This document shows positions 23,905-54,830 of a stretch of DNA of 64,000 nucleotides, one piece after another. Position 1 is the first letter of the stretch. Each line of letters begins with the position of its first letter. The stretch is from Sphingopyxis fribergensis (GTDB taxonomy: Bacteria > Pseudomonadota > Alphaproteobacteria > Sphingomonadales > Sphingomonadaceae). Position numbers and translations under genes: made by a program. The notes under the pieces are model-generated. The model was not told where the DNA came from and did no database searches. It was given only the letters and a program-made list of their open reading frames with translations. Where the stretch lies: the NCBI RefSeq assembly GCF_000803645.1, contig NZ_CP009122.1:1836501-1900500 (forward strand), given 5' to 3'.

Positions 23905-23916
23905 ATGCCTTCCCTT

Positions 23917-23988
23917 CGTCATTCACGCGAAAGCGGGAACCCAGCGAGCTGACGTCGCAACTGGGTTCCCGCTTTCGCGGGAATGACG
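23917..23988. repeat. Paired short palindromic repeat, copy A
   Basis: Two outward-facing arms, 23917-23944 and 23961-23988, are inverted copies of a 28-bp unit (CGTCATTC...GCGAAAGCGGG...CCCAG) around a 16-bp spacer. Each arm also contains the short stem CCCGC/GCGGG. The same unit occurs at 28936-29007 and in short form at 62642-62669. Could act as a terminator after PAP2's neighbour lpdA or simply be a REP-type element. Confidence 0.85.
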
Positions 23989-24001
23989 AGGTTGGTGAAG
24001 A

Positions 24002-28928: not shown

Positions 28929-28935
28929 TCACCCT

Positions 28936-29007
28936 CGTCATTCCCGCGAAAGCGGGAACACAGTTGCAACGGCTGCGCGCTGGGTTCCCGCTTTCGCGGG
29001 AATGACG
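28936..29007. repeat. Paired short palindromic repeat, copy B
   Basis: Arms 28936-28963 and 28980-29007 are inverted copies of the 28-bp unit seen at 23917, around a 16-bp spacer. The element fills the gap between the convergent regulator gene and rnr, where it may also end transcription from both sides. Confidence 0.85.
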
Positions 29008-29017
29008 AAAATTGGGT

Positions 29018-44827: not shown

Positions 44828-45036
44828 CATTTGCTCCAGCGCCGCAGCGCCCAAATTGACAGGAATATTCCAGCGAGGGTTATCGAAAGTCCGCCTAGAG
44901 GTGCCCAACGTGAATCCAGCCCCGCCGCTTCCGATCCAATCACGATCGCGCCGGTGCCAAAGTAGAAGCCAACCGAAAGCCAAAAGGCGATCGCCAGCAG
45001 TGCCAGTAGCGATGACGTGACGCGCTTGGCGCTCAC
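44827..45036 (-). CDS. Hypothetical two-helix membrane protein (69 aa) between bioB and pccA
   Basis: I do not recognise this protein. Two hydrophobic segments (about residues 8-30 and 47-64) flank a loop with [15 protein letters not shown], and the tail ends ALRRWSK. The GTG start overlaps the bioB stop (GTGA at 45033-45036) and its own stop lies within the ATGATG of pccA, so it is stitched to both neighbours. Base composition is a little lower in GC than the neighbours. Confidence 0.72.
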
Positions 45037-46151
45037 TCAGCCGCCTCCATCCGCATCGGCTCTTCGCTCTCCATCGGACGCAGCCCGAGCTTCGCGAACA
45101 GCGCCGCGTCGGCATTGTCGCCCGCATTTGCGGTCGTCAGCAGCTTGTCGCCGGTGAAGATGCTGTTCGCGCCCGCCATGAAGCACAAAGCCTGCGTCGC
45201 CTCCGACATGCTCTCGCGGCCTGCCGACAGGCGCACCATCGATTTCGGCATGGTGATGCGCGCGACCGCGATCGTGCGGACGAACTCGATGTCGTCGATC
45301 TTCGCCAACGGCGTGTCGGCGAGCATGTCGCCGAGCACGGTCCCCTTCACCGGCACCAGCGCGTTGATCGGCACGCTGCCCGGATGTTCGGGCAGGGTCG
45401 CGAGCGCGTGGATGAAGCCGACGCGGTCGGCGCGCGTTTCGCCCATTCCGACGATGCCGCCGCTGCACACGTTGATGCCCGCGCTGCGCACTTCCTCCAG
45501 CGTGTCGAGCCGCTCCTGAAAGGTCCGCGTCGTGATGACATTGCCGTAATTTTCCGGCGAGGTGTCGATGTTGTGGTTGTAATAATCGAGCCCCGCGACC
45601 GCGAGCGTCTGTGCCTGCTCCTTGCTGAGCATCCCCAGCGTCATGCAGGTTTCCATGCCCATCGCGCGCACGCCCTCGACCATCTCGACGATCGCGGGCA
45701 TGTCGCGGTCCTTGGGGTTCCGCCAGGCAGCGCCCATGCAGAAACGCTTCGACCCCGCATCCTTCGCCTGCGCCGCGGCCTGCAACACCGCGCGGACGTC
45801 CATCAGCTTGGTGGCTTTGAGGCCGCTGTCGGCGCTTTTCGACTGCGAGCAATAGCCGCAATCCTCGACGCAGCCGCCGGTCTTGATCGACAGCAAGGTG
45901 CAAAGCTGCACCTCGCCGCGCGCGTGGTGGCGGCGATGGACGCCCTGCGCTTCCCACATCAGTTCGTCGAACGGCAGGTCGAACAGGGTGGCGATTTCGT
46001 CGCGGGTCCAGTCGCGGCGACACTCGTCACCGCGCCCCTGCGAAGGCAGGGGCCCATCACCTGCGCGTGCGGCAAAAGCAGCGCCATCTTGAGAGACCTC
46101 GTGATGGGCCCCTGCCTTCGCAGGGGCACGGGTGGTTTGAATATTACTCAC
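45033..46151 (-). CDS. bioB: Biotin synthase with repeat-derived N-terminal extension
   Basis: 372-residue radical SAM enzyme that inserts sulfur into dethiobiotin. The radical SAM cysteines are C94, C98 and C101 ([10 protein letters not shown]), and the [2Fe-2S] ligands are in the usual places (KRFCMGAAW near 137, METCMTLG near 167, [12 protein letters not shown] near 227). The GTG start overlaps the mutase stop (GTGA, 46148-46151) with GGAG 7 bases upstream. Compared with E. coli BioB (W7 aligns with W48 here) the N-terminus is about 41 residues longer, and residues 9-40 are encoded by a palindromic repeat. No later in-frame start precedes the conserved [11 protein letters not shown], so the repeat must be translated. 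Confidence 0.92.
46034..46127. repeat. 27-bp perfect inverted repeat inside bioB
   Basis: Arms 46034-46060 and 46101-46127 are exact inverted copies of 27 bp, 40 bp apart, each containing an internal stem GCCCCTGC/GCAGGGGC. On the bioB strand it encodes residues 9-40, visible as [10 protein letters not shown] at one arm and DGPLPSQGR at the other. The element looks like a mobile REP-type repeat common in sphingomonads (family membership from memory) that landed in a coding frame. Confidence 0.9.
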
Positions 46152-48295
46152 GCAGCTTCTCCAATCGGCGGCATATTATGCCCCAGCAAGCGCAGCACGT
46201 CGGCTGCACACTCAACAACATTCGACCCCGGCCCATAAATTCCCTGCACCCCTGCGTCGCGCAGATATTGATAATCCTGCGGCGGGATGACGCCGCCCGC
46301 GATCACCTTGACGTCCCCGCGCCCCGCTTCCTTCAGCTTGTGGATAAGTTCGGGGATAAGTGTCTTGTGTCCCGCCGCGAGGCTGGAGGCGCCGACGACA
46401 TCGACCTCGTTTTCGAGCGCTAGCACGACGGTTTCCTCGGGGGTCTGGAACAAAGGCCCCGACACGACATCGAAGCCCATGTCGCCGAACGCCGAGGCGA
46501 TGACGTTGGCGCCGCGGTCGTGGCCGTCCTGTCCCATCTTGGCGACGAGCAATTTCGGTTTGCGCCCCATGCGGCGTTCGACCGCCTTCACGCCTTCGAG
46601 CACCTGGCTCCAGCGGTCGTCGCCTTCATAGGGCGCGGCATAAACGCCCTTCACCGGGGTCGGCTGGGTGGCATAACGCTGGAAACTTTCCTCCATCGCC
46701 GCCGAAATTTCGCCGAGGGTCGCGCGGGCGCGGGCGGCTTCGACCGCATGCGCGAGGAGATTGTTCTCGATCGACTGCTCGCCCGCAGCGGCATCGCGCA
46801 GCGCCTTCAGCGCCGCCTGGCAGGCCGCCTCGTCGCGGCTCGCCTTCATCTTGTTGATCCGCGCGATCTGCCCTTCGCGCACCTTGGCATTGTCGACCTC
46901 GAGCGTTTCGAGCAGGTCTTCGTCCTTGAGGCGATATTTGTTCACCCCGACGATCACATCGTCGCCGCGGTCGACGCGCGCTTGTCGCGCCGCCGCCGCC
47001 GTCTCGATCATCGCCTTGGGCCACCCCGCGGCGACGGCTTTCGCCATCCCGCCTTCCTTCTCGACGCGCTCGATAATCTCCCACGCCTTGTCGACCAGCT
47101 CCTGCGTCAGCGCCTCGACATAATAGGAGCCGCCGAGCGGATCGACGACCTTGGTCATCCCGGTTTCTTCCTGGATGACGATCTGCGTGTTGCGTGCGAT
47201 GCGGGCGGAGAAATCGGTCGGCAGCGCGATCGCCTCGTCGAGCGCGTTGGTGTGCAGCGACTGCGTCCCGCCGAGCATCGCCGCCATCGCCTCGATCGTC
47301 GTGCGCATCACATTGTTGTACGGGTCCTGCTCGGTCAGCGACACGCCCGACGTCTGGCAATGCGTGCGCAGCATCTTGCTGCGCTCGTCCTTCGCGCCAA
47401 GGTTAGTCATCACGCGGTGCCACAACACGCGCGCGGCGCGGAGCTTCGCAATCTCCATGAAGAAGTTCATGCCGATCGCGAAAAAGAAGCTCAGGCGCCC
47501 GGCAAACTTGTCGATGTCGAGGCCCGACGCGACGCCGTAGCGCACATATTCGGCGCCATCCGCAATGGTGAAGGCCAGCTCCTGCACCTGCGTCGCGCCG
47601 GCTTCCTGCATATGGTAGCCGGAGATCGAGATGCTGTTGAACTTCGGCATCTCGCGCGATGTGTAGCCGAAAATGTCGCTGATGATCCGCATGCTCGGTT
47701 CGGGCGGATAGATATAGGTGTTGCGGACCATGAACTCCTTGAGGATGTCGTTCTGGATGGTCCCGTCGAGCAGCTTGCGATCGACCCCCTGCTCCTCGCC
47801 CGCGACGATGAAGAAGGCGAGGATGGGGATCACCGCGCCGTTCATCGTCATCGAAACCGACATCTGGTCAAGCGGGATGCCGTCGAACAGGATCTTCATA
47901 TCCTCGACGCTGTCGATCGCGACCCCCGCCTTGCCGACGTCGCCGACGACGCGCGGATGGTCGCTGTCATAACCGCGGTGCGTGGCGAGATCGAAAGCGA
48001 CGGAGAGACCTTTCTGGCCCGCGGCGAGGTTGCGGCGATAGAAGGCGTTCGATTCCTCGGCGGTCGAGAAGCCTGCATATTGCCGGATCGTCCACGGCCG
48101 CCCCGCGTACATCGATGCGCGCACGCCGCGGGTGAAGGGCGCGAAGCCGGGCAGGCCGGGGTCTTCGCGCACGTCCTCGGCCGTGTAGAGCGGCTTGACG
48201 GCAATCCCCTCGGGCGTGTGCCAGGTTAGGTCCTTGCCCTTTACTTCCTTCTCGGCGGCGGCGGCCCATTGGTCGAGGGTCGGTTTGTCGGTCAT
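46148..48295 (-). CDS. scpA: Methylmalonyl-CoA mutase, single-chain
   Basis: 715-residue adenosylcobalamin enzyme converting methylmalonyl-CoA to succinyl-CoA. The N-terminal TIM barrel has [23 protein letters not shown] (core [13 protein letters not shown] near 75) with the CoA and active-site residues; the C-terminal B12 domain (about 580-715) has the base-off signature [12 protein letters not shown], with the cobalt-ligating His near residue 604. Length matches the large catalytic chain of homodimeric forms. Downstream of mce after a repeat-filled gap of 200 bp, coupled to bioB. Confidence 0.95.
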
Positions 48296-48315: not shown

Positions 48316-48493
48316 CCCCTCTCCCCTTGAGGGAGAGGGTTGCGCAGACTTGGCAGCTTGCTGCCTAGTCGAAGCTGGGTGAGGGGTATGCGGTCCAACG
48401 GACCGCGCGAGCTTAGCTCGCAACCCCTCATCCAAGTCCGGCTAGCCAGCAAGCTGGCAAGCCTCCCTATCCTTCTCCCTCAAGGGGAGAAGG
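48316..48493. repeat. Large imperfect palindrome between mce and the mutase gene
   Basis: The left half (48316-48400) and the complement of the right half (about 48405-48493) share CTCCCCTTGAGGGAGA, then CAGCTTGCTG and TGAGGGG in the same order, giving an imperfect inverted repeat of about 85 bp per arm. It fills the operon gap. MITE-like in architecture, no transposase nearby. It could attenuate or stabilise the operon mRNA. Confidence 0.75.
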
Positions 48494-54748: not shown

Positions 54749-54757
54749 AGCCTCTCT

Positions 54758-54830
54758 CCTCCCGCTTGCGGGAGGGGGAGGGCCTGTTACCGAAACATGC
54801 CCTCCCCTAGTCCTTCCCATAAATGGGAGG
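54758..54830. terminator. Hairpin pair between convergent SDR genes, probable bidirectional terminator
   Basis: CTCCCGC-TT-GCGGGAG (54759-54774) and TCCCAT-AA-ATGGGA (54815-54828) lie in the 88-bp gap between two convergent genes, with repeated GGAGGG/CCCTCC around them. No long T tract follows, so it may instead be a REP-type repeat. Confidence 0.55.

Follow-up and report, generated by a model that had tools for sequence, protein, structure and literature searches.

Palindromic repeats of several families occupy one junction at the start of bioB in Sphingopyxis fribergensis and its relatives

Introduction

The biotin synthase gene bioB of Sphingopyxis fribergensis contains a long inverted repeat closely behind its start codon and within its open reading frame. 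This locus raises the question of how a palindrome came to lie in the coding region of bioB, whether it is translated, and whether the peptide or the nucleic acid has been kept. The usual view places palindromic repeats between genes or takes them for isolated products of chance; at this locus, a single coding site carries repeats of unrelated types in many species, and the core of the protein is intact. In the following, the window is the whole stretch of 64,000 nucleotides of contig NZ_CP009122.1 that was analysed; the features of the locus are listed in Table 1.

Results

The inverted repeat and the start of bioB

The two arms are 97% complementary over 31 nt and 40 nt apart; the first arm begins after 20 nt of bioB. 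Their exact 27-nt parts, which span codons 9-40, lie where the initial annotation had placed them. The 22-nt core of the arm occurs twice in the window, compared with a mean of 0.00 in 100 shuffles, and the RNA fold of the element has an energy of -91.1 kcal/mol (z = -9.6), a stability reached by 0 of 200 shuffles. Reading the hairpin as an intrinsic terminator was rejected, as 0 terminators were predicted in 45900-46400. A second large inverted repeat (48317-48493), with 71-nt arms of 80% complementarity, lies between the genes for methylmalonyl-CoA epimerase and mutase; the mutase gene is thus flanked by palindromes on both sides.

The earlier assignment of the start codon, which relied on the overlap of GTG with the mutase stop and on an upstream GGAG, was retained. 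It had also been claimed that no in-frame start lies between the repeat and the BioB core; indeed, the GTG at 46151 is the sole in-frame ATG, GTG or TTG from the upstream in-frame stop to the core, whose motif DWTRDEI follows downstream of the arms. The E. coli-type BioB structure 1r30 aligns with this BioB from residue 41 and the family model TIGR00433 from residue 47; the tail therefore precedes the known BioB fold.

The distance from the mutase stop to the BioB core is 134 nt here versus 11-17 nt at five empty sites within the genus, which corresponds to a net gain of 39-41 codons. The empty sites in relatives support the original claim of an insertion into bioB, whereas the size of 32 residues given for it has to be corrected to this value.

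Table 1. Positions of bioB, its neighbours and the parts of the inverted repeat in the window
Feature	Position	Strand	Remarks and basis
bioB	45033..46151	-	GTG start, 372 codons; TIGR00433, 386 bits, match from residue 47; ORF list
Methylmalonyl-CoA mutase	46148..48295	-	NF006944, 1224 bits
Overlap of mutase stop and bioB start, GTGA	46148-46151	-	sequence
GGAG, likely bioB ribosome binding site, 7 nt before GTG	46159..46162	-	sequence; putative function
5' arm of inverted repeat	46101..46131	-	31 nt; exact part 46101-46127
3' arm of inverted repeat	46030..46060	-	31 nt; exact part 46034-46060
REP-like unit CCCCTGC-GAAG-GCAGGGG in 5' arm	46109..46126	-	repeat searches, copy comparison
REP-like unit CCCCTGC-GAAG-GCAGGGG in 3' arm, opposite strand	46035..46052	+	repeat searches, copy comparison
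Loop between arms, diverging freely in relatives	46061..46100	-	40 nt; comparison of relatives

A repeat family at gene ends

A search with the 18-nt unit yielded 45 matches with at most 2 mismatches in the 5.2-Mb genome of S. fribergensis and 0 for the reversed control, which confirms the proposed REP-like repeat family. The whole bioB element (arm type A, see below) gave 48 genome matches, many of which are the two strands of one site. The 11 complete inverted dimers of type A that were read follow the general arrangement CGTG-unit-CCCATC, variable loop, GATGGG-unit-CACG. According to our own gene models, type A copies are mostly intergenic and often lie about 20 nt or less from a gene end. 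The bioB copy sits directly behind a stop codon; this is the usual position of its family and not a target special to bioB.

The mutase-bioB junction in relatives

Junctions were compared for 66 bioBs adjoining a mutase gene with a gap of less than 250 nt. Left out were 14 duplicate loci, L201 (no anchor), 32 loci without a mutase end in the sequence retrieved for them, 13 loci with a mutase-to-core gap of 349-400 nt, and L138-L149 (similar peptide elsewhere or second bioB); the counts take genomes as they come, with kinship among them uncorrected. The gap is short (8-35 nt) at 20 junctions, which confirms that the tail is absent from some related bioBs; two junctions are apparent deletions, and 44 have a gap of insert size (101-244 nt). 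In 35 of these 44 bioBs, the extension can be read through from a start codon that overlaps the stop of the mutase gene; the remaining 9 have an own start, and none of the 44 lacks both. Palindromic repeats are carried by 34 of the 35 readable extensions; in the 110-nt extension of L194, no palindrome was seen. Readable filled junctions account for 20 of 27 coupled loci within the genus and for 15 of 30 outside it (Sphingomonas, Hephaestia, other Sphingomonadales). These 57 coupled junctions (35 + 22) were chosen as open with an overlapping start and have an intact frame by construction; the frame test is the fraction 35/44. In Sphingomonas populi (L183), the N-terminus of bioB contains a palindrome nested in another one, with 224 nt in total and a single open frame. 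In L063 (genome G019), the A element has its 3' arm interrupted by 24 nt inserted in frame, for which reason this locus was excluded from stem counts.

Arm types were assigned by eye to the 34 palindromic extensions. Type A, that of S. fribergensis, comprises 16 of them and has subtypes; type B (arm CCCTCCCGCTTGCGGGAGGG) comprises 9 and type C (arm GTGTCGAGCGAAGTCGAGACAC) 5. Type D (arm CCTGAGCTTGTCGAAGG) was found at L185, type E (arm CGTCATCCCCGCGAAAGC) at L225, and type F (arm CCCCTCCCCTTCAGGGGAGGGG) at L168 and L175. Type D has 45 matches with at most 3 mismatches in the genome of L185 (control 0), and segments of types E and F match 4 of 20 and 3 of 20 blocks of the S. fribergensis genome. 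Since the centre is common to A and E, and B is similar in style to F, we count at least four unrelated groups among the six types. The initial annotation had regarded an equally long but unrelated N-terminus in close relatives as evidence against an insertion. Such N-termini do occur, yet all that were read, except L194, are themselves palindromic repeats of another type, and thus they widen the insertion reading.

A tree was based on codons from the 3' part of the mutase gene and from the bioB core, with 57 rows and 1230 columns; of its 54 inner branches, 26 are starred. On this tree, the minimum is 21 changes of arm type and 12 of presence or absence, with two remnants and L194 scored as present. 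Sisters may carry different types, as do G007 (A1) and G009 (A2) at 100/100 or G046 (C) and G038 (B) at 97/70. The element of G009 combines the 5' unit of one A subtype with the 3' unit of the other; it looks like a mosaic, and type changes may in part be due to recombination. For this reason, the 21 changes are not a count of insertions, and equating each type change on the tree with one insertion was dropped.

Further copies and a second gene

Types B and C, which were seen at bioB of relatives, are also repeats in S. fribergensis, with 55 matches for B (both strands of palindromes counted) and 46 for C. Among 59 A loci with overlaps, 28 B loci and 30 C loci, with L249, L251 and L007 set apart, only bioB (A) and sufS (C) appear to be compelled to translate the element. 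Most of the other loci with a long reading frame have an ATG of their own behind the element, and several long upstream reading frames were rejected as translated cases for this reason; some of these genes we take to be dnaG-like, mpl-like and ABC-like. At L249 (C1:4955976), a 187-codon reading frame takes its stop and roughly its last 20 codons from a type B palindrome, and at L251 (window 54757-54776) another palindrome of this type lies near the start of a long reading frame on the + strand, a putative gene. Two near-identical palindromes of the window (23916-23989 and 28935-29008; arms TCGTCATTC.CGCGAAAGCGGGAAC.CAG) bear a CGTC tag; they are similar to the type E element that L225 has in its bioB.

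In sufS of S. fribergensis (C1:1062079-1063314; L261, L328), a C/D-type element lies in frame directly behind a GTGA overlap; elsewhere in the genus, the site holds a different variant or is empty. The gene product, a cysteine desulfurase, matches TIGR01979 with 463 bits, slightly below the curated value of 475. From 30 sufS loci, 29 junctions were read (L351 was left out): 22 hold one of two variants, with a gap of 95-107 nt, and the 7 empty ones have a gap of 38 nt; the filled fraction is biased upward, as the loci are the best matches of an element-bearing query. All 29 start at a GTGA overlap with the preceding gene. For 12 of the filled cases, no start other than the overlapping GTG lies nearby; the other 10 have one inside the element too.

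Control junctions and conservation

Among 76 other coupled junctions (from 2 x 400 kb of S. fribergensis and G001; looser definition, the stricter first version having given 38), a perfect stem of at least 12 in the first 180 nt was found in none, and one junction has a stem of 11. Such a perfect stem is present in 20 of the 35 filled and 0 of the 22 other bioB junctions, and in 34 of 230 ordinary same-strand spacers of at least 40 nt. The mean 120-nt fold energy is -65.5 for filled bioB junctions, -40.3 for other bioB junctions and -48.9 for the controls; 16 of the 35 filled junctions lie beyond the lowest control value.

The extension and the remaining sequence diverge differently. For A1, A2 and C, respectively, pN/pS of the extension is 0.57, 0.73 and 0.54, versus 0.14, 0.15 and 0.15 in mutase plus core; pairs of B, F and A3 gave 0.71, 0.44 and 0.85 for the extension. 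Stems differ by 3.6%, 3.6% and 4.0% (A1, A2, C; whole arms counted for C), the rest of the extension by 29.8%, 29.2% and 29.6%, and four-fold sites by 32.0%, 31.7% and 28.0%. In 15 A-type bioBs, the stems of the two units are paired in 105 of 105 and 103 of 105 cells and the long stem in 289 of 315; two-sided changes occurred at 6 of 14 unit pairs. As judged from these comparisons, it is the palindromes that are kept, and the peptide appears nearly free to change.

Orthologous A elements at two intergenic junctions (S. fribergensis C1:848584 and 4957497; L358-L366, L388-L399) have stem differences of 0/420 and 23/420 (0 and 5.5%), and their loops differ by 39-40%. Here, A is present in 6 of 9 and 6 of 12 genomes read, and other genomes hold other palindromes; these counts cover the 9 and 12 genomes that gave a single unbroken match, whereas in many others the two flanks matched separately. 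Because stem conservation is equally strong at the intergenic copies, it shows nothing special to bioB, and it could stem from gene conversion between copies. A selection of the hairpin specially in bioB was abandoned as the sole reading, as the two intergenic junctions show similar arm conservation and family swapping.

Discussion

A proposed slot behind the mutase gene

We suggest the following explanation. A REP-like inverted dimer occupies the junction immediately behind the mutase stop, and gene-end junctions of sphingomonads would be slots that are filled, vacated and refilled by several unrelated families of palindromic repeats. As the GTGA overlap of mutase and bioB leaves no spacer, the slot would fall inside bioB, and likewise inside sufS. 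Occupants would persist only if they are in frame and free of stops, or if bioB acquires its own start behind them. In S. fribergensis, the element would be translated as a dispensable N-terminal tail before the known BioB fold; the palindrome would be kept as nucleic acid and not as peptide. The 20 junctions without a palindrome, the extension of L194, which has none, and the 2 apparent deletions speak against a slot. On balance, a gene-end slot for palindromes together with a passenger peptide is the somewhat more probable account of the bioB tail, and that the tail peptide as such is a passenger seems very probable from the pattern of divergence. The insertion, the repeat family, the exchange of families and the divergence pattern are results of the comparisons, whereas translation, the passenger nature of the peptide and an RNA role are inferences.

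A role in the mRNA where the mutase cistron ends may contribute, with the hairpin either giving 3' protection to the mutase transcript or damping bioB, which is coupled to it. Such an RNA role of the hairpin is our best guess for its persistence, a tentative one that we view with slightly more reserve than conviction. The wider proposal, namely that a hairpin is selected whatever its family and that, at a given junction, unrelated families take each other's place to serve one RNA function, is distinctly more doubtful. If it were true, hairpin selection would override the protein where a start overlaps a stop, BioB and SufS would be forced to carry a translated hairpin tail, and the RNA function of the slot would be the marking of cistron ends or mRNA protection. 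At the bioB site, selection acting on the hairpin can be told apart from selection acting on the peptide, and the function of REP-like repeats becomes testable by synonymous recoding. A practical caution concerns BioB and SufS of these genera: their N-terminal tails are repeat DNA and not domains.

Alternative explanations

The extension might be untranslated if bioB started behind the element, at a codon that is non-canonical or has escaped detection, and if the frame were open by chance. GC-rich palindromes are indeed often open: among the 11 complete A elements of S. fribergensis, 43 of 66 frames are open and 3 of 11 lengths are 0 mod 3, from which a readable frame is expected by chance in about one fifth of insertions. 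The fraction observed among insert-size gaps, 35 of 44, is far above this value and makes translation likely. In 17 of the 35 readable extensions, a canonical start lies no more than 24 codons from the core, and a 2013 survey cautions in its main text that N-terminal REPs may be extragenic (PMC3733652); yet 18 extensions, among them that of S. fribergensis, contain no ATG, GTG or TTG in their last 24 codons. We therefore consider untranslated extensions improbable and have high confidence, on the basis of the reading frames, that the bioB tail of S. fribergensis is translated. That the peptide itself is useful, for example in targeting, regulation or stability of BioB, could be argued from its retention in 35 of 57 coupled bioBs. 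However, the peptides at this position are unrelated among relatives, pN/pS of the extension is 0.54-0.73, and divergence outside the stems reaches the level of four-fold sites, so that a function of the peptide is extremely unlikely.

The strongest competitor of the slot explanation assumes that palindromes land behind stops and are merely tolerated by the tails of BioB and SufS, conservation of the arms reflecting youth or gene conversion and not function. It is consistent with the equally conserved arms of intergenic copies, with the location of most S. fribergensis copies in intergenic DNA near gene ends, with the 20 empty and 2 apparently deleted mutase-bioB junctions, and with the genome of L163, where the bioB unit variant is present at one further place. 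It is less easily reconciled with the convergence of unrelated arm types on a single site, with the 0 of 76 other coupled junctions that are filled, or with Hephaestia, where the bioB unit variant is restricted to bioB among 11 matches. Moreover, bioBs of the genus contain an element in 1 of 28 cases when coupled to other genes (at least 4 of these couplings are doubtful) versus 20 of 27 behind the mutase. Mere tolerance is a serious possibility, although we would stop short of calling it probable.

Comparison with known systems

The BIMEs of E. coli are inverted REP pairs between the genes of operons, which are extragenic and have been proposed to protect upstream mRNA; unlike these, the bioB element lies inside the downstream reading frame. 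A resemblance exists to the alphaproteobacterial CGTC-1 REPs, for which the main text of the survey describes a short stem with a 4-nt loop, an unpaired tail that is mostly CCA, inverted dimers, most of them head-to-head, and an unpaired CGTC at one end, with no dedicated transposase known (PMC3733652). The bioB element likewise has a short stem, here of 7 bp, and a 4-nt loop (CCCCTGC-GAAG-GCAGGGG), and the unit is followed by CCCA in this and most copies. A search for PF01797 (RAYT), positive in 5 of 14 control genomes, gave 0 matches in the S. fribergensis genome; a RAYT-driven REP was therefore dropped, and by this search the element resembles CGTC-1 in having no dedicated transposase. The 11 complete inverted dimers have their tags outward, which may or may not be the head-to-head order of the survey. 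In contrast to CGTC-1, the stems are flanked on the outside by CGTG and CGCG in the bioB copy, and by mostly CGTG, some CGTT, in the other copies. The element thus resembles CGTC-1 REPs and, being without the CGTC tag, is not filed as a member. According to the same text, CGTC-tagged REPs favour the downstream side of coding regions, and intragenic REPs include cases in a tRNA synthetase and in truB of S. alaskensis (PMC3733652).

Rickettsia palindromic elements (RPE), as presented in PMC2229807, are about 105-146 bp long, are fused in frame within protein genes and are viewed as tolerated. The parallel drawn in the initial annotation holds in principle and not as membership: in both cases a palindrome lies in frame within conserved protein genes, here bioB and sufS, and the comparison concerns the working principle only, the genus being a different one. 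The described RPE repeat enters many genes, whereas the bioB site, a stop/start overlap, has received repeats of at least four unrelated groups.

In-frame palindromes are accordingly known from RPE and intragenic REPs, whereas the repeated filling of a single coding site from unrelated families appears to be new with respect to the printed sources found. Neither bioB nor biotin occurs in the main text of PMC3733652, and a literature search that was light on subscription journals found, among the entries listed, neither bioB with palindromes nor a coding site filled in this way. The nearest printed precedent found is recB of X. campestris and X. oryzae, where different REPs occur at nearly the same position within the gene (PMC3733652). 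That case concerns two species and REPs only; bioB adds 34 typed cases from several genera, in which unrelated groups of palindromes occupy an N-terminal stop/start overlap.
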